Shown: positions 4,610 through 43,632 of the stretch, in pieces
Numbering within the stretch: the first letter of the stretch is position 1
Layout of the letters: every line of letters starts with the position of its first letter
Origin: Verrucomicrobiaceae bacterium
GTDB lineage: Bacteria; Pseudomonadota; Gammaproteobacteria; Pseudomonadales; CAMLJR01
Assembly (NCBI GenBank): GCA_028293825.1
Contig: JAQGNY010000011.1
Location: forward strand, 83,952 to 147,951
Direction of reading: 5' to 3'
Length of the DNA: 64,000 nucleotides
Position numbers and translations under genes: made by a program
Notes under the pieces: generated by a model
The model's database searches: none
What the model was told of the DNA's origin: nothing
Seen by the model: only the letters and a program-made list of their open reading frames with translations

Positions 4610-5038
4610 TTAATCGGCCACACCCAAAATAACGTGCGACGCTTTGAATAACGCAGTGGCGGTCTGCCCCGCTTGCAATCCTAGCGAATCGACGCTGCTG
4701 TTGGTGACGATTGCGACTAAAGCCGCGCCGCCGGCGAGCGTTAAAATAACCTCACTGTTAACCGCGCCGCGCTCGACGCTATCAATAGTGCCGGCAAATG
4801 TATTGCGCGCGGAAGTACGAACACTTTCACCAGCCGGCGCGAGAATAATCCACGACGCTTTAATTAATGCAAAAGCCTCTACCCCCACTTTCAAACCGAG
4901 ATTTTTCGTGCTTGCTTGCGTGATGGTAGCGACGATGCAATCGCCGCCGCTCAGCGTTAATTCGATTTCGTCGTTGACCGCGCCGCGTTGAATGGCACTG
5001 ACCTTACCGCTGAATTGATTACGAGCGCTGGTACGCAT
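4610..5038 (-). CDS. Molybdate-binding protein with two TOBE/Mop domains
   Basis: Two homologous repeats: SARNQFSGKVSAIQRGAVNDEIELTLSGG / SARNTFAGTIDSVERGAVNSEVILTLAGG. Confidence 0.9.
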   Translation of the reverse strand: MRTSARNQFSGKVSAIQRGAVNDEIELTLSGGDCIVATITQASTKNLGLKVGVEAFALIKASWIILAPAGESVRTSARNTFAGTIDSVERGAVNSEVILTLAGGAALVAIVTNSSVDSLGLQAGQTATALFKASHVILGVAD

Positions 5039-5485: not shown

Positions 5486-6832
5486 TTACAACGAATGCAA
5501 AAATTGTTCGATTGCGCTGCGCTCGGCGCTCGATAACGCAACGAATCGCTGGCGCGCAATTTTTGCTTCGCCATCGTGCCACAGTATCGCTTCAGTCAAC
5601 GTGCGTGCGCGACCATCGTGCAGGTACGATTGGTATTCGCTAATAAATTCGGTTAGCCCAATTCCCCACAACGGCGGCGTACGCCATTCGCGACCCGATG
5701 CGAAAAAATCAGGCCGATTATCCGCAAGACCGTCGCCCATGTCGTGAAGCAACAAGTCAGTATAGGGATGAATTTCCTGTTTAACCAAATGCGGAAAACG
5801 CTCATTTTTTCCGGTGCGCAATGAAGGTTGATGACACAGAGCGCAGCCGCTGTCGCGAAATAGTTTTTCGCCACGCTGCACTTGCGGATCGCTTTTATCG
5901 CGCTGCTCGGGTGGCGCCAAATGCGTAAAATAAAACTCCAGCGCCGCTAATTGCACATCGGTTAATTCGGGATGCCCGCCACTCGGTGCCGCCAAACACG
6001 CGGCCTGTATCGGCGTACAATTCTCTTGTGGATGTAGTGTTGAGGTTATGCCCAAATCGCCGATCATTGCCGCTACGATTTGTTCACGCAGTGTCGCGGT
6101 ATTTGCTTTCGCGCCAAAGCGGCCGATCGCGCTCTTCTGTGTTTGCGCACTCCATACCCAATTTATTTTTCCGTTAACGCCGTCGGCTTTCTTTTGCTTG
6201 GCGAGACGCAACAAATAGCGCTCGTCGATTGCCTGCAGTAATCCCAAGCCGAATACGGGCGGTCCAACGCGCGCTGACGACAGCACGTCATCCAGTGCGC
6301 CGTAATTTAAATCGTGAAAACTGAGTAGCGGACGGCGCATTGAAATCACCGTGCCGTCATTCAGTTGCGTTTCGAATTCCTGCCACACAATCGTCGCGAT
6401 ACCCTCGCCGGGCACGCCGGGAATTCCCTGCTCGTTTAATTGATCGCCGTAATTCGGATGTGGCTTCGGACCGCCGTGGCTGTTTTCTCCCGGCACCGAT
6501 AAGCGCACCAACATCGATTGCATACGTTGCTGCGAATTTTCGGGCGCGCGACCACGGCCATTTTTCGGATGACAGGAAATACACGAGATGCGGTTATAGA
6601 GCGGGCCGAGCCCAACAGCCGTGTCGTTCGCCGGCGCAATCACCCAACTTTGATGAAACAGCGCGCGCCCGCGAAAAAACTGCTCGCGCTCGGTGTCGGT
6701 TAAATTAGGCAGCGGCTGACCGAACGCTTCGCGGCCGGCAACCGGTGCTGGCTGCTTTATTTTCGCTGTTGTGAATGCGCAGGAAAATGTGGCGATTAAA
6801 ATAATCAGCGCGCGGTTATGCCAACAATTCAT
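5486..6832 (-). CDS. Di-heme oxidoreductase (DUF1111/thiol oxidoreductase-like c-type cytochrome)
   Basis: CISCHPKNGRG and CALCHQPS heme motifs; ATGA overlap (6829-6832) with upstream gene supports this start rather than 6895. Confidence 0.85.
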   Translation of the reverse strand: MNCWHNRALIILIATFSCAFTTAKIKQPAPVAGREAFGQPLPNLTDTEREQFFRGRALFHQSWVIAPANDTAVGLGPLYNRISCISCHPKNGRGRAPENSQQRMQSMLVRLSVPGENSHGGPKPHPNYGDQLNEQGIPGVPGEGIATIVWQEFETQLNDGTVISMRRPLLSFHDLNYGALDDVLSSARVGPPVFGLGLLQAIDERYLLRLAKQKKADGVNGKINWVWSAQTQKSAIGRFGAKANTATLREQIVAAMIGDLGITSTLHPQENCTPIQAACLAAPSGGHPELTDVQLAALEFYFTHLAPPEQRDKSDPQVQRGEKLFRDSGCALCHQPSLRTGKNERFPHLVKQEIHPYTDLLLHDMGDGLADNRPDFFASGREWRTPPLWGIGLTEFISEYQSYLHDGRARTLTEAILWHDGEAKIARQRFVALSSAERSAIEQFLHSL

Positions 6833-8142
6833 ACCGCCGTATTTTCCAACAGTGCTTTGGCCTGCGTAACTCGATTGTCGGTTTCGGAGCGCCAAGTGCG
6901 CTCGATATCGCTGAGCGTTGGCTCTGCGCCTTCGATCCGTTCGCGAAATATTTTTTGCAGCTCAGCGCTTGCAGCCTGTTCTTCTCGCAACGGCGCCGCA
7001 GATAAAATAGCGCGCGCACTCGTCATCGTGCGCCCCAATTTTTCCTGCGCATGCAATTGCTTCCATAACGCCGCTTGCTCGTCGTGTCGATACGCCAAAT
7101 GCTGATCGAAATACGCAGCAATAACACCGAGCCGGTTGCGCCCGACATCGTTGTCGTAATCGAGCTCGCCGCGCGCCGCCGCATCGAACGGGCGGTAATA
7201 ATCCGCGTCGAGTTGCGTATACGCCGCAGGCAACACTGGCAATTTGCGAATGTCCGGATGTGTCAGTAATAACTGGCCTGCTTGGGACAACACGAACTCG
7301 GCGAATGCACGCGCACCATCGCCATTCGATGCGCTCGCGGTAATGGCGATGTGCCCGGGATTGATGCCGCTGCGATGCGGATACGCAAATTTTAATTTGG
7401 CGCCATTCGCTATTGCCGACGCGACAAAAAAGTCGATCGATAAGCCGACGGCGCAGCGACCGGATGCAACATCGTCGCTGACGAAACTGGCGCCGTGCTC
7501 CATCAACACCGATTGCGCGGCGATTTCATTCCACAACGCCCAGCCCTGTTGCCAACCGTATCCCTGCAAAACAATATCGATCATCACCGGTGCGAAACCA
7601 ACCCGCGCCGGATTTGGCAATGCAATCTGCCCGGCCAAACGCGGATCGGTTAAATCGCGCCAATCTTTTGGTTGCCGCACACCCAATCGTGTTAACGCCG
7701 ATTCATTGATAGCAAAACCGTAACCGGCCATTTCGGTCGCGACAAAATAATCGTCCGCATCGCGCAATTGCGTGTGGCCTATTTTTGTCGGCAGTTTCGT
7801 GCGGTCGATATCGAGCTTGCGCAAAGCGTTTTCGGATTTAAGCCGCGCGAAAGTTCGCGGCGACGCCGACCAATACACATCGACGCCACTTTGTTGCGGT
7901 TGTAATAAATACGGCAACGCGTCGCGCGGCATCCGCCAGATAATTTGCAGCCGATATTCCGGGTGCAATTTTTCGAATGCTGCTTCGAAGCGCGATACCA
8001 CCTCATCAGGATAACTGGTGACAACAACAACATTGCGCGGATCGGCGCGCAGCGGCAGCGCGACAGTGGCAAGAGCCACCGCCGAACCTTTTAGAAAATT
8101 ACGTCGATTAAGCGCGAATACAGTTGATTTAGAATTTGTCAT
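6829..8142 (-). CDS. Extracellular solute-binding protein, Fe(3+)-family-like, no adjacent permease or ATPase
   Basis: Tat-like signal RRNFLKGSAVALATVALPLRA; VVTSYPDEVVSRFEAAFEKLHPEYRLQII. Confidence 0.8.
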   Translation of the reverse strand: MTNSKSTVFALNRRNFLKGSAVALATVALPLRADPRNVVVVTSYPDEVVSRFEAAFEKLHPEYRLQIIWRMPRDALPYLLQPQQSGVDVYWSASPRTFARLKSENALRKLDIDRTKLPTKIGHTQLRDADDYFVATEMAGYGFAINESALTRLGVRQPKDWRDLTDPRLAGQIALPNPARVGFAPVMIDIVLQGYGWQQGWALWNEIAAQSVLMEHGASFVSDDVASGRCAVGLSIDFFVASAIANGAKLKFAYPHRSGINPGHIAITASASNGDGARAFAEFVLSQAGQLLLTHPDIRKLPVLPAAYTQLDADYYRPFDAAARGELDYDNDVGRNRLGVIAAYFDQHLAYRHDEQAALWKQLHAQEKLGRTMTSARAILSAAPLREEQAASAELQKIFRERIEGAEPTLSDIERTWRSETDNRVTQAKALLENTAV

Positions 8143-8172: not shown

Positions 8173-10164
8173 TTAAAAGCCAATGTTGAATTGCGCGAAA
8201 TAGGTACGGCCCGCTTCGGGAAAGCCTTCAGAATATTCGTAGAGTCGATCGAATAAATTACGCACGCCGATTTCCACCAGCAAACTTCTTTCAAACAAGC
8301 GATAGCCGGTTTTCAAGTTGGCGATGCCGAAGCCGCCGACTTGTTGTTTACCGTCGCTGGTTGAATAACGCGATGACGACACCTCAACGCTGCCGGTTGC
8401 CGTCCACAGATCGTCGATATGCCAGGTCGCGTCGCCGACCAATTTGTGGCGCGGCGTATCGGTGAGATGAACGCTGGAGTCGCTTATATTTTTGCGGCTG
8501 ATATAACCGTAACTGGCGCCGACATCCCACGAGTTAAGATCGGCGCGTACGCCGCCGTCGAACCCATCGATACGCACCTTGCCAACGTTTTGCATTTGCG
8601 TACACGGCGGTGTGGAACAGGCCGTCGCTGGAATACTAATCGCCTGTATTAAATCGCTGACTTCCGAGTGATAAACGCTGGCATTCCAATGCCATATTGT
8701 TGCGAAGACATCGTCATAGCCAATTTCAAAATGATTGGCGCGCTCGGACTTTAAATCGGCATTTGGCAGTGCCGTACCCATGCGATATGAATAACGATCT
8801 TTAATGGTCGGGAAGCGGCTTTTGCGTGCGAAGGTCGCATGCAATAAACCCGAATCGGTCGACTGATAAAACAGACCCAGCGTCGCGTTGTTGGCATTGC
8901 TGTCATCGCGTGCAAAATCCGAAACCACTCGCGTTTTTGCGTTGTAATCCTCGGCCTGCAAACTGTCGCGCCAATCGTGCGAAACCCCGGCAACCAGCGA
9001 TAATTTATCGGTCAGATCGTGCGTGTCTTCGAGCGCAATCGATTGCGTACGATCTTCATCGTGGCGAATCGGTTCGCCGGCGTTGTGTTCGCGATGCACA
9101 TCGTCTTTCCAGTGATACGCCGTTTTCAGCAGATTAATATCGCTCAACTGAAAATCGCCTTCGACGCTGGCGCCATTGGTGTAGTCGTCATACCAGCTTT
9201 GAAATGAAGAGCCTTTTTTCTGCGTGGTATAGGTGGCGTCGTCATACGCAAACAGCGAGTTTTGGTAAGTGTCGTGGAATGCTCGCGACTTCAACGTCGC
9301 GATGCCGATCTGCGTGCTGGAAATAAAATAAAGACTGTCCTTATCCCAATACGGCCATTGCCAGTAGCGCGCGGTTACGCCCGGTACCGATCCCGCATAC
9401 GGCGGGTTGCCTTTGACGCCGTGCTGCGAAATGTAATTCAGGCTGTATTCGTCGGTCGCATTCGGCGTGAATCCGACTTTTAAATTGTATTTGCGATCGG
9501 TGTTGTAACTGTTGTCACGATTGCCGCCATCTTCGGATTTCACCGCATCGAAACTATCCGGCAAGCGATAGAAGTTTTGATCGAGATATGACGCGCCGGC
9601 CTGTATGTACCAGTTGCCTTGATTGCTGCCGACATTGGCGTAAATACGGTTGCCATTATTTTTGCCGTTATCGGTCCAAGTCGCGCCACCGCCGACCTCG
9701 CCCTCGAATTCTTTTTGCGGTCTGCGGCTAACTAAATTAATTGCGCCGCCGAGTGTATTCGGCCCATAAATTAATGAGCTGAAACCTTTGGCAACATCAA
9801 TGCGCGACAAATCGAAGGTATTGAAACGACCGAGATCGACATAACCGTCGTACGGCACATACACGGGTATGCCATCGACAAAAACGGGCACTTGGCGCAA
9901 ATCGAAACCGCGCACGTAAACCATTTCCTCATTGCGCGCGCCGACTTTACTGATGCTGATCCCGGCGGTGGTATTGAGCGCGGTGCCGACCGTTTCCTTG
10001 TCGTACAGACGCATGGTTTTTACGTCGATGCTCTGGCCGTTTTCGATCGATTCGTGCAGCGCGCTGGCGGTGACGACAACCGTACCGAGCGTGAATATGC
10101 CGTCATCGGCGCCGAATGCAGCGCCGCTCGATGCAAGCAATAGCGAAATTACTGTCTTTCTCAT
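8173..10164 (-). CDS. TonB-dependent outer-membrane receptor
   Basis: Plug domain (GISISKVGARNEEMVYVRGFDLRQVPVFVDGIPVYVPYDGYVDLGRFNTFDLSRIDVAKGFSSLIYGPNTLGGAINLVSRRP) and C-terminal aromatic GF. Confidence 0.93.
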   Translation of the reverse strand: MRKTVISLLLASSGAAFGADDGIFTLGTVVVTASALHESIENGQSIDVKTMRLYDKETVGTALNTTAGISISKVGARNEEMVYVRGFDLRQVPVFVDGIPVYVPYDGYVDLGRFNTFDLSRIDVAKGFSSLIYGPNTLGGAINLVSRRPQKEFEGEVGGGATWTDNGKNNGNRIYANVGSNQGNWYIQAGASYLDQNFYRLPDSFDAVKSEDGGNRDNSYNTDRKYNLKVGFTPNATDEYSLNYISQHGVKGNPPYAGSVPGVTARYWQWPYWDKDSLYFISSTQIGIATLKSRAFHDTYQNSLFAYDDATYTTQKKGSSFQSWYDDYTNGASVEGDFQLSDINLLKTAYHWKDDVHREHNAGEPIRHDEDRTQSIALEDTHDLTDKLSLVAGVSHDWRDSLQAEDYNAKTRVVSDFARDDSNANNATLGLFYQSTDSGLLHATFARKSRFPTIKDRYSYRMGTALPNADLKSERANHFEIGYDDVFATIWHWNASVYHSEVSDLIQAISIPATACSTPPCTQMQNVGKVRIDGFDGGVRADLNSWDVGASYGYISRKNISDSSVHLTDTPRHKLVGDATWHIDDLWTATGSVEVSSSRYSTSDGKQQVGGFGIANLKTGYRLFERSLLVEIGVRNLFDRLYEYSEGFPEAGRTYFAQFNIGF

Positions 10165-10207: not shown

Positions 10208-10231
10208 CGCTATATTTAACCAGATATATCG
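10208..10231. promoter_or_regulatory. ModE-like palindrome upstream of the TonB receptor operon
   Basis: CGCTATAT-N8-ATATATCG; 44-67 nt upstream of the receptor start. Confidence 0.6.
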
Positions 10232-10263: not shown

Positions 10264-13200
10264 CTAATAAACGTCACGCACGTAGCGTTTGGCGGCGGCA
10301 AGTTCGCACACATAATCCGCCGCCTTGGCCGCTGTCATCTCGCCATGCGCAGCCACCACGGCCTGCAACATACGATCGACATCCTTCGCCATCCGACTGG
10401 CATCGCCGCACACATAGAAGTGCGCACCGTCCTGCAACCAACGCCACAACTCGGCGCCGTGTTCGCACATGCGATCCTGCACATAAATTTTTTCGGTTTG
10501 ATCGCGCGAGAATGCCAAGTCCAAGCGCGTCAGAAATTTATCGGCGCGCCATTTCTCCAGTTCGTCCCGGTAATAAAAATCGGTTGCCGCATGTTGTTCG
10601 CCGAAGAACAACCAATTCTTACCGGTGGCGCCAGTGGCCTGACGTTCATGTAAAAACGCGCGAAACGGCGCTACGCCAGTGCCCGGCCCAACCATGATCA
10701 TCGGCACGGTGGGATCGCTCGGCGGGCGAAAATGCGCCGATTTTTGCAGAAATAACGACACCGCGCTGTCGTTGACGCGATCCGCCAGAAAAGTCGACGA
10801 CACGCCTTTGCGCTGTCTATTTCGATAGTGATAGCGCACGGCTGATACGGTCAGATGCACTTCGTTTGCGAACGCTTTTGGGCTGGACGAAATCGAATAC
10901 AGACGCGGTTGCAGGCGCCTCAACAAACTCTGCAGATCGGTCGGATTGAATTTCGCAGCGGGATGCTCGCGCAATACATCGACCAGTTGCTTGCCCCACA
11001 GCCAGTCTTTCAATTCATTTTCGCGCTCGGGTTTAAGCAACGCGGGTAATGGTTCAGCGACGGCGCTGCGCGCGGCGATCGCTTCCAACATCGCGCGCGA
11101 CGGCTGTGCAATTTCATAGTGATTACACAATGCGGCGTGCAGCGGAAATTCGCCAAGCTCGGGTAGTGCAACAGGCGTTTCTTTTGGTAACCCAAGTACG
11201 TCGATAAATTCATCGACCAGCTCGGCGCAATTGCTCGGCCACACACCCAGCGCATCGCCCGCTTCATATTGAAACGAATCGTCCAGTGCGAACGCGAAAT
11301 GTCGCGTCTCTTTACTCGATCCGTCACCGTTCAAACGCTGATTCATGATTAAGCGCGATGCGAATGGCGATTTTTTTGTGTATGCGGGCTCTGATTTTTT
11401 ATTGACAGTTATTGTGGATGAATCCAGCACTGCTGTTTTCGTAGCGTTTTTCTCAACAACGTTCTCGGCGTCATTCGCGCTGCCTTTACCTTCAATCAAT
11501 GCCGCAGAGATTGTATGCAGCCAATTTTTCGCTGGCGTTTCAAAATCGGAATCGCAATCGATGCGCGCACTTAATCGCTGTGCGCCAAGCGCTTCCAATC
11601 GCGCATCGAGCTTGCGACCGAAACCGCAGAACTGACCGTAGCTGGAATCGCCAAACGCGAGCACGCCGTAGCGTGTGCGTTCAAGTGCCGGTGCATTATC
11701 GGTTTGCAACGCATGCCACAGTGCTGCGCCGTTATCGGGTGGATCGCCGTCGCCAAATGTGCTGGTCAGCAATAATAAATTTTGCGCCTTGGATAAATCG
11801 GCGGGCGCGAAAGCATCCATGCTGTGCGAAGTCACGTCGAAATCGCTCGCTTTGAAATGTTCGGCACATTGATCCGCGAAACTCTCAACGTTGCCAGTTT
11901 GCGACGCCCATAAAATGGTTACCGATGTTTTCGCAATGACTGGAACTATTGATTGTGATGACATCGGCGATTGCGGTGGTGAATATGCCAGCGGTTGCGC
12001 GTCATAGTTGGATGTTCCAGACCGCGAAAATAAACCGGCGAGCATCCCGTCGATCAATATTCTTCGCGCCGGTTGCAGCGGCGCGTTTGCAGGAAGCGTC
12101 GGTACGCCGCCCGCCCCGCGCCCCGCCTCACTGCTTAACCCCAACAAAAAGCCCTGCAAATACAGCTGTTCTTGCGCATCCAAAACCGGGGCCTGCGCAA
12201 CCTCCAAACCGAGCAATTGAGCCAACGCGGTAATTTGCATGGTGTCGATTTCCGTAATCGTGGCAGTTCGGGTATCGGTATGGACCATCGTGCGCATGTC
12301 GGTTTTGGTGGCGATAGCTACGTTGCTGTCTTCAGTATCTGCGTTAGCGTCCGCGTCGATATGTACCACTGGAATTTCCTCCGCAACTTTGCACAACATG
12401 ACTGCGCAAAATTTAAATTCGGGTTGTTGCGAAATCGGATCGATGGCATCGCTGGTAACGGCATTGATCGCAAGGTCCTCGCCAAACACATCGTTCCAAT
12501 GAAACGGTGCGAAGCAATTACCGGCGCGTACGCGGTCCGTCACCACCGCCGGCAATATGGCGCGGCCGCGCCGCGAGCGAATTTCAACACGATCCTTGTC
12601 GCAAATATTCAATGCGGCCGCGTCTTCGGGATGCAACTCGACAAACGGACCGGGATTTAATTTATTAAGCGTTGCGATTTTTCCGGTCTTCGTCATCGTA
12701 TGCCATTGATGTTGCAGGCGACCGGTATTAAGCACGATGGGGAAATCAGGATCGGGCATTTCCGCTGCATCCATATGCGGGCGTGGAAAAAACACACCCT
12801 TGCCGCTCGCTGTCGCGAATGTCAGGCACGGTTGAGCGCCATCGTCATCGCGGCGCAATTTTTGGCTGACACCATCGTTCAAATACCGAATCGGATGCCG
12901 ATCATTGTTGTCGGCGGGCGGACACGGCCACTGCAATGAGGTTTCGCGCAGACGCGAATAACTCGCACCGCGAATGTCGTAACCGGTGTTCGGATTCCAG
13001 AATTTTTTTATCTCATCGAAAACGTCTGTCGCCGATGCGTAAGTAAATGCGTGCGCATAACCCATCGCGCAGGCGACGCGCGCGATAATTTGCCAATCAG
13101 CCATTGCATCGCCGGGCGGATCGATCGCGTGCTGCATCAGCGTTAAATTTCGCTCGGAATTAATCATCACGCCTTCGGCTTCGGCCCACAGCGCGCCCGG

Positions 13201-14538
13201 CAATAAAATATCGGCGTAACGATTGGTTTCGGTATCGAGGAACGCATCCTGCGTGATGACCAATTCGCAAGCTTGCAGAGCAGCGATAACATTTTTTCGA
13301 TTCGGCACGGTCGCTACCGGATTGGTGCAAATAATCCAGCAGGCTTTTATTTGTCCGCTTTGCATGGTGTCGAACATCGCGACGGTGCCGCCGCCGAGTC
13401 GCGTGTGCAAAGTGTCTCGCGCTACTCCCCAAGCTTGTTCGACAAAGTGACGATCGTCTTCGACCAATACTGAGCGCTGACCGGGCAAGCCCGGGCCCAT
13501 GTAGCCCATTTCGCGTCCACCCATTGCGTTGGGCTGGCCGGTCAATGAAAACGGACCACTGCCGAGACGGCAGATTGCGCCCGTTGCCAAATGTAAATTG
13601 CAAATCGCATTAGTATTCCAGGTACCGTGCGTGCTTTGGTTCAAGCCCATCGTCCAGCAGCTCATCCAATTGGCGGCATTGCCGATTAATTCGGCGGCCT
13701 GACAAATATCCGCAATATTTAATCCGGTAATTTCCGCAACTTTTCCCGGCGTGTAATCGGCGAGAAATTCCGGCATCGCCTCCCATCCTTCGGTGAACTC
13801 GGCGATGAATTCGGCATTCGTGTGATTATTTTTTTGCAGTAGATGCAACAAGCCATTCAACAGCGCGAGATCGGTACCGGGTTTTATTTGCAGGAATAAA
13901 TGTGCTTTGTCGGCGGTTGCGTTGCGACGCGGGTCGACCACGATTAATTTCGCGCCGGCTTTAATGCGATCCATCATGCGCAAAAATAAAATCGGATGGC
14001 AGTCGGCCATGTTTGCGCCGATGACGAAGAACACATCGGCGTGATCGAAATCCTGATACGAGCCCGGCGGTCCGTCGGACCCGAGCGATAATTTATAACC
14101 GCTGCCGGCGCTGGCCATGCACAGGCGCGAATTCGATTCGATCTGATTGGTGCCGATAAAACCTTTAATTAATTTGTTGCAAAGATATTGCGCTTCCAGC
14201 GACATTTGTCCGGACACATAAAAAGCAAACGCATCCGGGCCGTGTTCGTCGATAATTTTGCGCAAACGTTGTGCGGTATCGGCGATGGCCGCGTCCATTG
14301 CAAGTGGCGTTGGATCTTTATCGCGCTGCTGACGGATGTAGGCTTTTTCCAAACGACCGGAATTGCGCAACGCGCCCGCACTGGTCGCGCCTTTCGTGCA
14401 CAACCGTCCGAAGTTGGTCGGATGCGATTTATCGCCGCTGACTTTCACAACTTTGTTATCGGCAACTTCCAATAACATACCGCAGCCTACCCCGCAGTAT
14501 GGGCAAACCGTAGCGACTGTTTTATTTGCTGTGGCCAT
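10264..14538 (-). CDS. Fused assimilatory nitrate reductase (molybdopterin, 4Fe-4S) and CysJ-type flavodoxin/FAD/NADPH reductase
   Basis: CPYCGVGCGM N-terminus, molybdopterin oxidoreductase body, then ILWASQTGNVESFADQCAEHF flavodoxin and GPGTGVAPFRAFLHERQATG reductase motifs. Confidence 0.93.
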   Translation of the reverse strand: MATANKTVATVCPYCGVGCGMLLEVADNKVVKVSGDKSHPTNFGRLCTKGATSAGALRNSGRLEKAYIRQQRDKDPTPLAMDAAIADTAQRLRKIIDEHGPDAFAFYVSGQMSLEAQYLCNKLIKGFIGTNQIESNSRLCMASAGSGYKLSLGSDGPPGSYQDFDHADVFFVIGANMADCHPILFLRMMDRIKAGAKLIVVDPRRNATADKAHLFLQIKPGTDLALLNGLLHLLQKNNHTNAEFIAEFTEGWEAMPEFLADYTPGKVAEITGLNIADICQAAELIGNAANWMSCWTMGLNQSTHGTWNTNAICNLHLATGAICRLGSGPFSLTGQPNAMGGREMGYMGPGLPGQRSVLVEDDRHFVEQAWGVARDTLHTRLGGGTVAMFDTMQSGQIKACWIICTNPVATVPNRKNVIAALQACELVITQDAFLDTETNRYADILLPGALWAEAEGVMINSERNLTLMQHAIDPPGDAMADWQIIARVACAMGYAHAFTYASATDVFDEIKKFWNPNTGYDIRGASYSRLRETSLQWPCPPADNNDRHPIRYLNDGVSQKLRRDDDGAQPCLTFATASGKGVFFPRPHMDAAEMPDPDFPIVLNTGRLQHQWHTMTKTGKIATLNKLNPGPFVELHPEDAAALNICDKDRVEIRSRRGRAILPAVVTDRVRAGNCFAPFHWNDVFGEDLAINAVTSDAIDPISQQPEFKFCAVMLCKVAEEIPVVHIDADANADTEDSNVAIATKTDMRTMVHTDTRTATITEIDTMQITALAQLLGLEVAQAPVLDAQEQLYLQGFLLGLSSEAGRGAGGVPTLPANAPLQPARRILIDGMLAGLFSRSGTSNYDAQPLAYSPPQSPMSSQSIVPVIAKTSVTILWASQTGNVESFADQCAEHFKASDFDVTSHSMDAFAPADLSKAQNLLLLTSTFGDGDPPDNGAALWHALQTDNAPALERTRYGVLAFGDSSYGQFCGFGRKLDARLEALGAQRLSARIDCDSDFETPAKNWLHTISAALIEGKGSANDAENVVEKNATKTAVLDSSTITVNKKSEPAYTKKSPFASRLIMNQRLNGDGSSKETRHFAFALDDSFQYEAGDALGVWPSNCAELVDEFIDVLGLPKETPVALPELGEFPLHAALCNHYEIAQPSRAMLEAIAARSAVAEPLPALLKPERENELKDWLWGKQLVDVLREHPAAKFNPTDLQSLLRRLQPRLYSISSSPKAFANEVHLTVSAVRYHYRNRQRKGVSSTFLADRVNDSAVSLFLQKSAHFRPPSDPTVPMIMVGPGTGVAPFRAFLHERQATGATGKNWLFFGEQHAATDFYYRDELEKWRADKFLTRLDLAFSRDQTEKIYVQDRMCEHGAELWRWLQDGAHFYVCGDASRMAKDVDRMLQAVVAAHGEMTAAKAADYVCELAAAKRYVRDVY

Positions 14539-14562
14539 ACTCTACGTCCGCAAATCATGTGT

Positions 14563-14620
14563 AAAAAAAAGCGCTCATCGCCGTAAAACTCCTTCTTTGG
14601 AGTTAAACAACCATGAGCGC
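14563..14620 (-). terminator. Intrinsic terminator in the nitrate reductase leader, enclosing hexaloop hairpin P2
   Basis: GCGCTCAT (14613-14620) pairs with ATGAGCGC (14571-14578), followed by 8 T (14563-14570) on the minus strand. Confidence 0.85.
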
Positions 14621-14660
14621 CATTGCCCTACTTTCTGGTAAAACCCTCCGACATTGGAGG
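14563..14660 (-). ncRNA. ANTAR-protein-responsive antitermination leader (dual hexaloop)
   Basis: P1 CCTCC-AATGTC-GGAGG (14645-14660) and P2 AACTCC-AAAGAA-GGAGTT (14587-14604); both six-base loops have A1 and G4; P2 lies inside the terminator. Confidence 0.82.
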
Positions 14661-14703
14661 AATCGAGATCTCACACGCATTGATTAATTAACAACGAACC
14701 AAC

Positions 14704-14727
14704 CGATATGTCCCACGGGATATATCG
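14704..14727. promoter_or_regulatory. ModE-like palindrome upstream of the nitrate reductase leader
   Basis: CGATATGT-N8-ATATATCG, same geometry as 10208-10231. Confidence 0.6.
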
Positions 14728-14732
14728 TTAAA

Positions 14733-14748
14733 AGCAAAGCGCACGCCA
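14733..14748 (-). promoter_or_regulatory. Candidate sigma-54 (-24/-12) promoter
   Basis: TGGCGT-N5-TTGCT on the minus strand, consensus spacing. Confidence 0.5.
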
Positions 14749-14802
14749 ATGCGCCAGCGCCTTACAATTCAAGGGCTTTTTATTATTTACGGAATAAATC
14801 GC

Positions 14803-14847
14803 GCTGCGTCGTGGTGCGCGCGAGCGCTTTGCGCACAATAGATGTGC
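14803..14847. promoter_or_regulatory. Two candidate NtrC-type enhancer sites, centres 30 bp apart
   Basis: GCAC-AATAGAT-GTGC (14833-14847) and GCTG-CGTCGTG-GTGC (14803-14817). Confidence 0.5.
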
Positions 14848-14929
14848 CGAAAAGCACGAAATGATTTGAAGTGGAAGACGCTGAATTATCTTTAGAAGGG
14901 TGTTTCTATTAGAAGGCTTTAAAAGTTAC

Positions 14930-15829
14930 TTAATCGGCGCTCACTACAACTTTTTTCTCGCCTCTGATTACATATAAACCACTTATCACGACAATGGCGG
15001 CACCGATAAGCATCGAGCTGCTCGGCAGCGCGGTCCAAAATATCCAATCGAATAATAAGCCCCACAAGAGCGCGGTGTACTCGAACGGTGCGACTGTAGC
15101 CGCCGGCGCCAGCCGAAAAGCCAACGTCAGTAAATATTGGCCGAATGCACCAGCCACGCCAATGCCGGCAATCCACGGCCAGTGCGATGATTGAATCGGT
15201 ACCCAATTGAGACTCGCCAACATACCTGCGACCACGGTCGAAATAATCATGGTCCATAAAACCGTGGCGGCGGCGGAATCGGTGCGCGCCAGCACGCGAA
15301 TCAAAATCGAGCTGATCGCGTATTGAAACGCCGTTGCAAATGCGGCCAGCCCGCAGAGCGTTAACAATCCTGAACCTGTCGGCCGCAAAATTATCAGCAC
15401 GCCCGTTAATCCAGTGGCGACCGCCAACCATTTTTTCCACGTTACCTTTTCACGCAGGAATAAAACCGACATCGCTGTTATCAATAGCGGGCCGCATAGT
15501 CGTATCGAATACGCATCGCTCAGCGACAGAATGCTCAGCGAATAAACGAATGACGCCAAAATGCCCACGCCCAGCAAGCCGCGTAGCAGATGAATTGGCC
15601 AATTAATGGCAAATAAGTTTTTGTGTTGCCCCGAGGCGAGCGTGAATAGCAACACCAGCGGCAAGGATGCGATGCCGCGAATAAACGAAACCTGCAACGC
15701 AGGATAGGTCGCGACCAGATGTTTCATCGACAAATCCATCACCGCGAATGCGCCAATGGCGCAGAGCATCCAAACAATTCCGCGCAACGATGAATTTGTT
15801 AGAGAAGATTGTTTAAGTGTGTTCGGCAT
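14930..15829 (-). CDS. EamA/DMT-family transporter
   Basis: Ten-helix DMT pattern, duplicated EamA-like halves. Confidence 0.85.
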   Translation of the reverse strand: MPNTLKQSSLTNSSLRGIVWMLCAIGAFAVMDLSMKHLVATYPALQVSFIRGIASLPLVLLFTLASGQHKNLFAINWPIHLLRGLLGVGILASFVYSLSILSLSDAYSIRLCGPLLITAMSVLFLREKVTWKKWLAVATGLTGVLIILRPTGSGLLTLCGLAAFATAFQYAISSILIRVLARTDSAAATVLWTMIISTVVAGMLASLNWVPIQSSHWPWIAGIGVAGAFGQYLLTLAFRLAPAATVAPFEYTALLWGLLFDWIFWTALPSSSMLIGAAIVVISGLYVIRGEKKVVVSAD

Positions 15830-19882: not shown

Positions 19883-21007
19883 ATGACGATGGCAGAATTG
19901 CTCGAAGCTAAATTCGATTCGCGTCATTTCGTGCCTGCGTTTAAAAACGTCAGTCGTGACGTGGTCGAGTTCGATAATCCCCCGGCCTATTCGCGCAGTA
20001 TTCGCGCTACAGCGCTAGTGTTTGAAGACCCAGCGTCTAGAGCGCTATACGAGCGCTTGGAAAAACTCGCGCCCAGCAACGCAAATGTTCTCATCATTGG
20101 CGAGACCGGCACCGGCAAAGAATTGGTGGCGCGGCAGGTGCATCGCCTGAGCGGGCGCGGCAAGGGCCCTTTCATTGCGGTCAACTGCGCGGCACTACCG
20201 GAGCAATTGGTTGAGAGCGAATTATTCGGACATGAAAAAGGTGCTTTTACCGGAGCCCAGGAACAGAAAAAAGGTTGGTTCGAAGTCGCCAACGGCGGCA
20301 CTCTATTTCTCGATGAAATTGGCGATTTGCCACCTGCGACTCAAGTGAAATTATTGCGCGTGTTGCAGGAGCGCGTATTAAGTCGCGTCGGCAGCCGCAC
20401 CACTATCCCCATCAATATTCGTTTAGTGGCAGCGACCAATGTCAATCTGGAAGAGGCCGTAAAAACTGGTCGCTTCAGAGAAGATTTGTACTATCGTTTA
20501 AATGTTGCGAAAGTGAATCTGCCGCCATTGCGCGAACGGCTTGGCGATATTGGGCCGCTGGCGGAACATTTTGTGGAAACGTACCGCGAGAATCTCGGCA
20601 TAGCGGCTGCCGGTATTTCCGAATCCGCGCGCGAAGCGTTATTGGATTATCCATGGCCCGGCAATATTCGCGAGTTGGAAAACGTCATTCACCACGCCAT
20701 GCTGGTGATGCAAAACAACATCATCGAAGCCGAAGATCTCGATTTAGCGAAATACAGTTTTTCGAGATCATCGCCCGATCAATTGCAGCAAGAGGTGAAT
20801 GATCGCCAGGCCAATTTATCGCTTGAGCATGCGCTGCTGGATTTACTGGATGGTCACGGCAAGCATTTATTCGCCGATATCGAAGCGCGCGTAGTTCGCT
20901 GCGCCTTCGAATATTGCCAACACAATCAATTGCAGACGGCAAAACTATTGGGTATCAGCCGTAATATTTTGCGGCACCGCTTGAAATTGTACGGAATGCT
21001 GCAGTAA
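19883..21007 (+). CDS. Sigma-54-dependent activator lacking a sensory domain (SfnR-like)
   Basis: Walker A GETGTGKE, GAFTGA loop, C-terminal Fis-type HTH; ATG directly follows the molbindin stop. Confidence 0.88.
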   Translation: MTMAELLEAKFDSRHFVPAFKNVSRDVVEFDNPPAYSRSIRATALVFEDPASRALYERLEKLAPSNANVLIIGETGTGKELVARQVHRLSGRGKGPFIAVNCAALPEQLVESELFGHEKGAFTGAQEQKKGWFEVANGGTLFLDEIGDLPPATQVKLLRVLQERVLSRVGSRTTIPINIRLVAATNVNLEEAVKTGRFREDLYYRLNVAKVNLPPLRERLGDIGPLAEHFVETYRENLGIAAAGISESAREALLDYPWPGNIRELENVIHHAMLVMQNNIIEAEDLDLAKYSFSRSSPDQLQQEVNDRQANLSLEHALLDLLDGHGKHLFADIEARVVRCAFEYCQHNQLQTAKLLGISRNILRHRLKLYGMLQ

Positions 21008-40501: not shown

Positions 40502-40894
40502 ATGCCCAGCACTACCGCCGACAAAAAAATAACTAAAGGCGCTCGCTTACGCGCGCAGTTGCGTATTTTGCTCGACGATGAAATTGCGCTGGGCCCGGGC
40601 AAAGCCGATTTACTCGAGGCAATACGTGAAACTGGCTCCATCTCCGCCGCCGGTAAAAAAATGAGCATGAGTTATCGGCGCGCATGGTTGCTGGTGGATG
40701 CAATGAATCGCTGTTTTAAATCGCCGTTAGTCGATACGGCAAAAGGAGGTGTCGATGGCGGCGGCGCACGACTCAGTGAACACGGCGCAACCGTATTGGC
40801 AAATTACCGGGCGATGGAACAAGCCGTGGCGCGCATCACGGATAAACATTTCGAAGCGATTAAACCGCTTCTGAAAAAAAATCCTGTCATCTGA
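40502..40894 (+). CDS. ModE-type winged-helix regulator, DNA-binding domain only
   Basis: GPGKADLLEAIRETGSISAAGKKMSMSYRRAWLLVDAMN; no C-terminal TOBE region. Confidence 0.88.
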   Translation: MPSTTADKKITKGARLRAQLRILLDDEIALGPGKADLLEAIRETGSISAAGKKMSMSYRRAWLLVDAMNRCFKSPLVDTAKGGVDGGGARLSEHGATVLANYRAMEQAVARITDKHFEAIKPLLKKNPVI

Positions 40895-40933: not shown

Positions 40934-40957
40934 CAATATATCCATGTAAATATAACG
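40934..40957. promoter_or_regulatory. ModE-like palindrome upstream of modA
   Basis: CAATATAT-N8-ATATAACG. Confidence 0.65.
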
Positions 40958-41016: not shown

Positions 41017-41790
41017 ATGCGCTGCACCCGTTTATCGATTCGCACATTGGCCGGATTATTTCTCAGCGTCATATTGCTGCAACCGCTGGCTCACGCAGAT
41101 GAAGTAAAAGCTGCCGTCGCTGCGAATTTCACTGCCGCGATCAAACAACTGACGCCATTATTCGAGCAAAAAACCGGGCACAAATTAGTTGCCAGTTTCG
41201 GCGCCACCGGTCAGCTGTACGCGCAAATTAATAACGGCGCACCGTTCGATGTTTTTCTCGCCGCTGACGATCAGGCGCCGCAGCAATTAATTGCCAGCGG
41301 CAATGCTGTCGCCGGTTCGCATTTTATTTATGCACGCGGACGTCTCGCGCTGTGGAGCAGCACGCCCGGTTATGTGGACAGCAACGGCGATATTTTGAAA
41401 AGCAATAAATTTGAAAAAATCGCGGTGGCAAATCCGAAAATTGCGCCGTACGGCAAAGCAGCCATCGAAACCTTAACCGCGCTAAAACTGCTCGAACAAT
41501 TGCAGCCGAAATTTGTTACTGGTGAAAATATCGCGCAAACCCAACAATTCATCAGTACCGGCAATGTACCGCTCGGCTTTATTGCACTCGCTCAAGTTAA
41601 CGCATTACCAGCAACTGAGCGCGGCAGCTTCTGGGTGGTACCGGATAAATTGCACGAGCCTATCGAGCAAGGCGCAGTGCTATTAAAGAATGCCAATGCT
41701 GACGCCAGTGCCGCTACTGCATTTCTCGCGTTTTTAAAATCGCCTGAAGCAGTCACCGTTATTCGCGAACTGGGTTACGAAGTCCCGTAG
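41017..41790 (+). CDS. modA: Molybdate ABC transporter substrate-binding protein
   Basis: EVKAAVAANFTAAIKQLTPLFEQKTGHKLVASFGATGQLYAQI. Confidence 0.95.
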   Translation: MRCTRLSIRTLAGLFLSVILLQPLAHADEVKAAVAANFTAAIKQLTPLFEQKTGHKLVASFGATGQLYAQINNGAPFDVFLAADDQAPQQLIASGNAVAGSHFIYARGRLALWSSTPGYVDSNGDILKSNKFEKIAVANPKIAPYGKAAIETLTALKLLEQLQPKFVTGENIAQTQQFISTGNVPLGFIALAQVNALPATERGSFWVVPDKLHEPIEQGAVLLKNANADASAATAFLAFLKSPEAVTVIRELGYEVP

Positions 41791-41803
41791 CTTTTTTGCG
41801 TCA

Positions 41804-42511
41804 TTGTTCGAAATAGGAAATGCGTCGTTGAATGTTGCAAGCATCGACTGGCAGCCCATTTGGTTGACGCTGCGACTCGCCAGCATTACCACGGTTGTAC
41901 TCATGGTGGCTGCGATACCTCTCGGCTGGTGGCTTGCGCGCACGCACTCGTGGATGAAGCAGCCGTTATCCGCAGTGTTTGCGTTGCCGCTGGTATTACC
42001 GCCTACCGTTCTCGGTTTTTATCTATTGTTGCTACTAGGCCCGCATGGGCCGGTTGGCGGACTTACACTTTCACTGGGCCTCGGCACCCTGCCCTTTACG
42101 TTTACCGGATTAGTCATCGCATCGAGTTTGTATTCGCTGCCGTTCGCACTACAGCCGATTCAAAATGCATTTGAAAATATCGGTAGTCGTCCATTTGAGG
42201 TGGCAGCAACTTTGCGCGCCACACGCTGGGATCGCGCGGTTAGCATCGCATTGCCATTGGCGCGCAATGGTTTGCTGAGTGCTGCGGTTTTGGCTTTTGC
42301 CCACACTATCGGTGAGTTCGGCGTGGTGTTGATGATTGGCGGCAATATTCCCGGCGCCACTAAAGTGTTATCGGTCGCCATTTACGATCATGTCGAATCG
42401 ATGGAATACGCGCAGGCGCATTGGTTAGCCGGCGGCATGCTCGCGTTTTCGTTTATTACTTTGCTCACGCTGTACATCGTCAGCGGCCGTTCGATGCGAA
42501 TTGTTCGATGA
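41804..42511 (+). CDS. modB: Molybdate ABC transporter permease
   Basis: PLVLPPTVLGFYLLLLLG; HTIGEFGVVLMIGGNIPG. Confidence 0.95.
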   Translation: MFEIGNASLNVASIDWQPIWLTLRLASITTVVLMVAAIPLGWWLARTHSWMKQPLSAVFALPLVLPPTVLGFYLLLLLGPHGPVGGLTLSLGLGTLPFTFTGLVIASSLYSLPFALQPIQNAFENIGSRPFEVAATLRATRWDRAVSIALPLARNGLLSAAVLAFAHTIGEFGVVLMIGGNIPGATKVLSVAIYDHVESMEYAQAHWLAGGMLAFSFITLLTLYIVSGRSMRIVR

Positions 42512-42569
42512 ACACTATTGTCCGATGAAAACTGTAGTTCGATGAGCACAATTGCCTGATGAAAACTAT
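42502..42569. repeat. Four 17-bp tandem repeats spanning the modB-modC junction
   Basis: TGTTCGATGAACACTAT / TGTCCGATGAAAACTGT / AGTTCGATGAGCACAAT / TGCCTGATGAAAACTAT. Confidence 0.9.
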
Positions 42570-43632
42570 CGAAGCGCGTTTTAACGGCACCTTCGGCAAC
42601 TTTAATCTGAATGTTGCGTTGAGTATTCCAGGCAGCGGCATCACTGCACTATTCGGCGAATCGGGTGGCGGCAAAACCAGCTTGCTGCGCTGTATCGCCG
42701 GACTGGAGCAATTAAATGGCGGCTATTTGCGCGTAAACGATGTCGTCTGGCAGGACCACAAAACATTTATTCCCACTCATCGGCGCGCGATTGGTTTTGT
42801 GTTTCAGGAAGCGAGCTTATTCGCGCACTTGAATGTGCGCCGCAATCTCGAATACGGCTATAAACGCACGCCGATCTCTGCACGGCGACTCGGCTTTGAC
42901 GAAGTCGTCGCTTGGCTCGGTGTGGAAAATTTTCTGCAGCAAATGCCGCACACACTATCGGGCGGACAGCGTCAGCGTGTTGCCATTGCACGCGCGTTAC
43001 TGAGCAGCCCACAGCTGTTATTAATGGACGAACCACTCGCCAATTTGGATTTAAACAGTCGCGCGGAAATTCTGCCGTATCTCGAACAACTGCACGATCG
43101 ACTCGACATCCCCGTTATTTACGTCAGCCATACGCCGGCCGAAGTGGCACAACTGGCCGATCATTTAGTGTTGCTCGAACGCGGACATATCACTGCCAGC
43201 GGGCCCATTAATGAAATGCTGACGCGCCCAGATTTAACACCGGCGCAACAGGATGAGGCGAGCGCCGTTATGGAAGGCCGCGTAATCGAGCACGATCTTA
43301 TATTTCATTTAACGCAGATTGCAGTACCGGGTGGCACCGTTGCAGTCGCATTTCGCGAACTACCTATCGACCATGCGGTGCGCGTGCGGATTCTCGCGCG
43401 CGACGTAAGCATTGCACTCACTCCGCCGCAAAATACCAGCATCACCAATGTGCTGCCGGCACGTGTTATCGATATCACGGAAGCGCCGAACAGTGCTCAA
43501 GCACTGGTACGACTCGATCTTGGTGGCACAATTATTCTATCGCGGATTACGCGCCGCTCAGTCGTACTGTTAGATATAAAAACCGGATCGCCTGTTTACG
43601 CACAGGTGAAAAGCGTTGCGTTAATATGCTGA
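42559..43632 (+). CDS. modC: Molybdate ABC transporter ATP-binding protein
   Basis: GESGGGKTSLLR, LSGGQRQRVAIARALL, C-terminal TOBE. Confidence 0.95.
   Translation: MKTIEARFNGTFGNFNLNVALSIPGSGITALFGESGGGKTSLLRCIAGLEQLNGGYLRVNDVVWQDHKTFIPTHRRAIGFVFQEASLFAHLNVRRNLEYGYKRTPISARRLGFDEVVAWLGVENFLQQMPHTLSGGQRQRVAIARALLSSPQLLLMDEPLANLDLNSRAEILPYLEQLHDRLDIPVIYVSHTPAEVAQLADHLVLLERGHITASGPINEMLTRPDLTPAQQDEASAVMEGRVIEHDLIFHLTQIAVPGGTVAVAFRELPIDHAVRVRILARDVSIALTPPQNTSITNVLPARVIDITEAPNSAQALVRLDLGGTIILSRITRRSVVLLDIKTGSPVYAQVKSVALIC

Follow-up and report, generated by a model that had tools for sequence, protein, structure and literature searches.

The nitrate reductase gene nasA of the window (the whole stretch of 64,000 nucleotides analysed here) is preceded by a promoter and a leader on which nitrogen status, molybdenum supply and nitrate presence probably converge. 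In the model favoured here, which is drawn from sequence, transcription would be initiated by NtrC and sigma-54 under nitrogen limitation, blocked by ModE when molybdenum is sufficient, and extended by NasT antitermination in the presence of nitrate or nitrite. A sequence-only reading of this region had proposed four stacked control layers upstream of the gene. Every motif of that reading was found on the minus strand at its coordinates, and the sites of all four layers are present, but NtrC is the enhancer-binding protein and sigma-54 its sigma factor, so that both form a single layer and the inputs are three rather than four.

The fusion gene and its putative NtrC/sigma-54 promoter

The nasA gene (10264-14538, minus strand), identified by sequence and domain matches, encodes a protein of 1424 aa in which a molybdopterin nitrate reductase is fused to a CysJ-like flavodoxin/FAD/NAD module. 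This NasA/CysJ type of nitrate reductase, widely annotated as 'bifunctional nitrate reductase/sulfite reductase flavoprotein subunit alpha', was described earlier (PMC4013037) and shares its domain order with the window gene at 60-65% identity. In Paraburkholderia largidicola, the NasA/CysJ gene lies immediately 3' of nirBD, whereas the window nasA heads its own cluster. The fusion is absent from the sole other genome covered in the genus and family searches, and a class-level search (E 1e-140) among 369 genomes matched its own genome alone. Another NasA, 884 aa long, is encoded on a separate contig of the same genome, after nrtABC, a porin gene and nirB/nirBD, and no ModE box is found in the leaders of this second nasA (nirBD operon).

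Upstream of the fusion gene, two NtrC-like sites, GCACATCTATTGTGC (14833-14847) and GCACCACGACGCAGC (14803-14817), precede a sigma-54 -24/-12 element, TTGGCGTGCGCTTTGCT (14733-14749), all on the minus strand. As had been claimed from the letters alone, these are paired sites of the GCAC-N7-GTGC type about 30 bp apart: site 1 is exact, whereas site 2 begins exactly 30 bp past it and carries two mismatches. They stand 99 bp (start-to-start) and 69 bp 5' of the sigma-54 element, in which GG-N10-GC is intact and two positions depart from TGGCAC-N5-TTGCW. The -12 element falls at 14735-14734 and the predicted start at about 14722. Both the -24 hexamer and the second NtrC site are imperfect. The genome's own glnA promoter carries a sigma-54 element, TGGCATAGAGTTTGCC, with NtrC-like GCACCATAACAGCGC and GCACCAAAATGGAAC located 88 and 108 bp upstream, and weak-looking sites are thus normal for this genome. 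NtrC (748 bits, exceeding the cut-off) and RpoN are both encoded. The window also encodes, at 19883-21007, a 374-aa sigma-54 activator with AAA+ and Fis-type domains, in which Pfam detected no receiver domain.

Over the whole 64 kb, lone NtrC-like and sigma-54-like matches are rarer than in shuffles and hence unremarkable; since lone motifs are at chance level, whole-window motif counts were dropped as evidence. The arrangement was instead assessed on the 390 bp upstream, dinucleotide-shuffled 20,000 times, using tests devised after the sequence was seen. An NtrC pair with a spacing of 28-34 bp and at most two mismatches in total occurred in 9 of the 20,000 shuffles, and such a pair followed by a sigma-54 element in none. 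Three shuffles contained a ModE box with no more than one mismatch, and the composite of a sigma-54 element and a ModE box at the right distance did not occur. When 392 genomes of the order were scanned for a composite pattern drawn from the nasA promoters of the window and of a relative, G026, the sole matches were these two source promoters.

Conservation in relatives, on which the sequence-only reading had staked its proposal, holds element by element, the whole set occurring together in none of the three relatives examined. In G234, whose enzyme shares 71% identity with that of the window in the N-terminal 400 aa, two NtrC-like sites exactly 30 bp apart lie 96 and 66 bp from the sigma-54 element, and the nasA promoter displays no ModE box. 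A modA-like gene divergent from the nasA fusion (L009, 3925-4833) constitutes another nitrate-molybdenum neighbourhood in this relative. In G026, a strong sigma-54 element is accompanied by a palindrome in the matching place. This palindrome was not retained as strong support and is counted as weak because its half-site spacer is 10 bp instead of 8 bp and its frequency in the G026 genome is that of the background. The nasA fusion of a Klebsiella pneumoniae plasmid, 60% identical to the window gene, is preceded by a sigma-54-like TGGTATAGTTCTTGCT and, a few bases on, by a perfect ModE box, CGATATATATTTAATTATATAGCG, just 5' of the probable ATG; a gene for a TOBE protein lies at its 3' end.

The dual-hexaloop leader

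The dual-hexaloop terminator leader mentioned by the earlier reading is present; that reading gave no hexaloop coordinates, and the second hexaloop is corrected here to 14628-14615. The first hairpin, P1 (CCTCC-AATGTC-GGAGG, 14645-14660, minus strand), is supported by folding, by a descriptor match and by compensatory changes among four leaders of the genome, with both-side changes at 4 of 6 pairs across only four sequences. The second, P2 (GGGC-AATGGC-GCTC, 14615-14628, minus strand), is mutually exclusive with an intrinsic terminator (14563-14620, minus strand) whose arms are located at 14620-14613 and 14578-14571, followed by eight T at 14570-14563. Indeed, the 3' arm of P2 doubles as the 5' arm of the terminator (within 14620-14613), an overlap kept in the three other leaders. 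This sharing is the arrangement described for EutV targets, in which the second loop of an ANTAR dual hexaloop overlaps the terminator (PMC8934654). Both loops, AATGTC and AATGGC, have the six bases with A1 and G4 of ANTAR hexaloops. The leader fold reaches -49 kcal/mol, 5.3 s.d. below shuffles, and a descriptor of dual hexaloop plus terminator had a single match in the window and none in 40 shuffles of it, whereas Rfam at gathering thresholds gave no match. A third hairpin, AACTCC-AAAGAA-GGAGTT (14587-14604, minus strand), was considered, in its ACTCC-AAAGAA-GGAGT form, as the second ANTAR hairpin. Its loop also carries A1 and G4, but it sits inside the terminator loop and has no counterpart in the genome's other three leaders, and P2 was preferred.

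These three further dual-hexaloop terminator leaders precede nirB (L010, 5199-5310), nrtA (L021, 7920-8030) and narK (L011, 7410-7562). In the narK leader, an exceptionally long gap of about 60 nt separates the two hairpins. The sole ANTAR protein of the genome is NasT, its gene being followed by a NasS-like gene, and nasT-nasS adjoin narK. Among the three relatives examined, the hexaloop leader was not found 5' of nasA in G234, in G026 or on the Klebsiella plasmid.

ModE boxes and the TonB receptor cluster

The palindrome near the nasA start is a ModE box with one mismatch, CGATATATCCCGTGGGACATATCG (14704-14727, minus strand), which spans about -6 to +18 with the predicted start inside its left arm. 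Two other boxes are found in the window: CGATATATCTGGTTAAATATAGCG (10208-10231, minus strand), free of mismatches, before a TonB receptor gene, and CAATATATCCATGTAAATATAACG (40934-40957, plus strand), with one mismatch, between modE and modA. Scanning 4.34 Mb of the genome with CGNTATAT-N8-ATATANCG returned no site with fewer than two mismatches other than these three. At two mismatches, 14 more were obtained, the reversed control pattern giving 22 in all. The arms and the 8-bp inner spacing agree with the operators of E. coli ModE, of which the consensus is ATCGNTATATA-N6-TATATANCGAT (PMC545781). The ModE of the window differs from this E. coli type (PMC545781) in consisting of the DNA-binding domain alone and in having nasA and a TonB receptor among its predicted targets. 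The small regulon predicted from the boxes thus includes nasA, the TonB-receptor cluster and modA, modB (assigned by position) and modC (41017-43632, plus strand).

ModE itself (40502-40894, plus strand; 130 aa) aligns with positions 7-101 of a 263-position ModE model. The molybdate-binding domain is absent from the ModE of this genome, which is therefore not of the two-domain E. coli kind, and the molybdenum signal may come indirectly. A promoter integrating nitrogen status, molybdenum supply and nitrate, as the sequence-only reading had proposed, is well supported as a prediction, with this qualification on the route of molybdenum into ModE. A ModG-like double-Mop (TOBE) protein (4610-5038, minus strand), recognized by domain and PDB matches, covers positions 123-259 of the same model. 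Its nearest PDB entry is the molybdenum-binding protein 1h9j, which we take to be ModG of A. vinelandii. ModE and the double-Mop protein could possibly represent a split ModE.

The cluster behind the perfect box, all on the minus strand, encodes a TonB-dependent receptor (8173-10164), a solute-binding protein with a TAT signal (6829-8142) and a di-haem oxidoreductase (5486-6895), the real start of the latter being probably 3' of the ORF start. Relatives of the receptor in plasmid-collection records (L066-L076), 33-39% identical, often occur in molybdenum gene contexts. In E. coli, the receptor gene lies beside FecBCD-like ABC genes and modD, and a Proteus cluster is ordered similarly. The P. 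aeruginosa relative adjoins a molybdopterin oxidoreductase gene, moaA and narIJHG, whereas the Azospirillum one is accompanied by a similar solute-binding protein and di-haem oxidoreductase. ModE boxes with at most two mismatches precede the relatives of E. coli, Proteus, Methylorubrum, Shinella, P. aeruginosa and Azospirillum; those of Paracoccus and Novosphingobium have weaker boxes with three mismatches, and no box was found upstream of the Bartonella and Sphingomonas relatives. Over 175 kb of receptor loci, 9 of the 11 boxes with at most two mismatches lie directly before operons or receptor genes. These receptors are probably a ModE-controlled family, the candidate substrate being molybdate or a molybdate chelate.

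Proposed mechanism, alternatives and known systems

From the sites, their geometry, the encoded regulators and the regulon, all read from the sequence, we infer protein binding, the start site, the direction of molybdenum control and the isoenzyme roles. When nitrogen is limiting, sigma-54 polymerase at 14749-14733 would be activated by phosphorylated NtrC from its sites at 14803-14847. With sufficient molybdenum, ModE bound at 14704-14727 would cover the predicted start and block the promoter; it is this position of the box that leads to predict blocking and not activation. By default, the transcript would end at the 14563 terminator, whereas nitrate or nitrite would free NasT from NasS, and NasT would then stabilize P1 and P2 so that the terminator cannot form. 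As ModE would also govern modABC and the downstream TonB-receptor cluster, scarce molybdenum would switch on the fusion enzyme and molybdate acquisition together. The predicted rule is that nasA is on at low nitrogen, with nitrate present and molybdenum scarce.

Repression of a molybdenum enzyme when molybdenum is plentiful is counter-intuitive. It makes sense if the enzyme is an isoenzyme for scarcity, made together with molybdenum uptake. Tentatively, the NasA-CysJ fusion may thus be a ModE-repressed isoenzyme for molybdenum scarcity, co-expressed with TonB-dependent uptake of molybdate or its chelate, while the ModE-independent NasA would serve molybdenum-replete cells. The molybdenum-controlled alternative nitrogenases offer a parallel to such an isoenzyme.

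The opposite direction of control, in which ModE activates from the same sites and nasA is on only when molybdate suffices for active enzyme, would be physiologically sensible for a molybdenum enzyme, and ModE of E. coli is indeed able to activate molybdenum-enzyme and cofactor operons. However, its activating sites in E. coli lie upstream of the promoter, unlike the nasA box, which overlaps the predicted start, and sigma-54 promoters use AAA+ activators. Moreover, the start-region ModE site of anfA accompanies repression (PMC9542535). Activation is therefore considered unlikely. More improbable is that the 14704 palindrome belongs to another regulator or forms a 5' mRNA hairpin, leaving control to nitrogen status and nitrate only. 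The truncation of ModE and the lack of a box in G234 would fit such a reading, whereas the exclusivity of the three boxes genome-wide at no more than one mismatch, the perfect box in the equivalent place on the Klebsiella plasmid and the presence of boxes upstream of genes related to the adjacent TonB receptor gene argue for ModE.

About as improbable, finally, is a sigma-70 promoter located elsewhere, with coincidental sigma-54 and NtrC matches and the RNA leader working alone. Each motif is singly common by chance, but the joint geometry was never reproduced in the 20,000 shuffles, and similar sigma-54-like elements precede narK, nrtA and glnA in the same genome. The sequence-only reading had itself named a sigma-70 start elsewhere as the case against it, and no sigma-70 promoter-like match is present within 14530-14960.

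Several parts of the favoured model, with NtrC/sigma-54 initiation, ModE blocking and NasT antitermination, are already known. NtrC/sigma-54 initiation joined to ANTAR antitermination on nas operons is exemplified by NasR of Klebsiella oxytoca and by NasS-NasT of Paracoccus, Azotobacter and Pseudomonas putida (PMC3795266, PMC5424462), with joint NtrC and NasT control in P. denitrificans (PMC5424462). The window resembles these classical operons in that initiation would depend on general nitrogen control and elongation on nitrate-dependent leader antitermination. It differs from them by the additional ModE operator over the start and by its enzyme, a NasA-CysJ fusion encoded beside molybdenum-related genes. 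A ModE site in the start region of a sigma-54 promoter, as predicted for nasA, is likewise known from anfA of Azotobacter vinelandii, which is repressed by molybdenum (PMC9542535). Unlike nasA, anfA encodes an alternative-nitrogenase activator, and the passages on it mention no antitermination leader. No precedent was found for joining these parts at a nitrate reductase gene whose ModE regulon also takes in a TonB receptor: a literature search that covered few subscription papers returned nothing in which ModE regulates nas genes or is linked to TonB receptors.

If the model is true, nitrate assimilation would have a single promoter and leader that respond to metal supply, to nitrogen status and to the presence of substrate, and the use of nitrate would be linked to a family of TonB receptors under ModE control, of which members were found here in both Alpha- and Gammaproteobacteria. 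It would then be possible to test directly whether molybdate enters cells via TonB receptors, also with the E. coli operon encoding ABC, methyltransferase, modD and receptor functions, which is found in 2,121 of 5,426 complete genomes.
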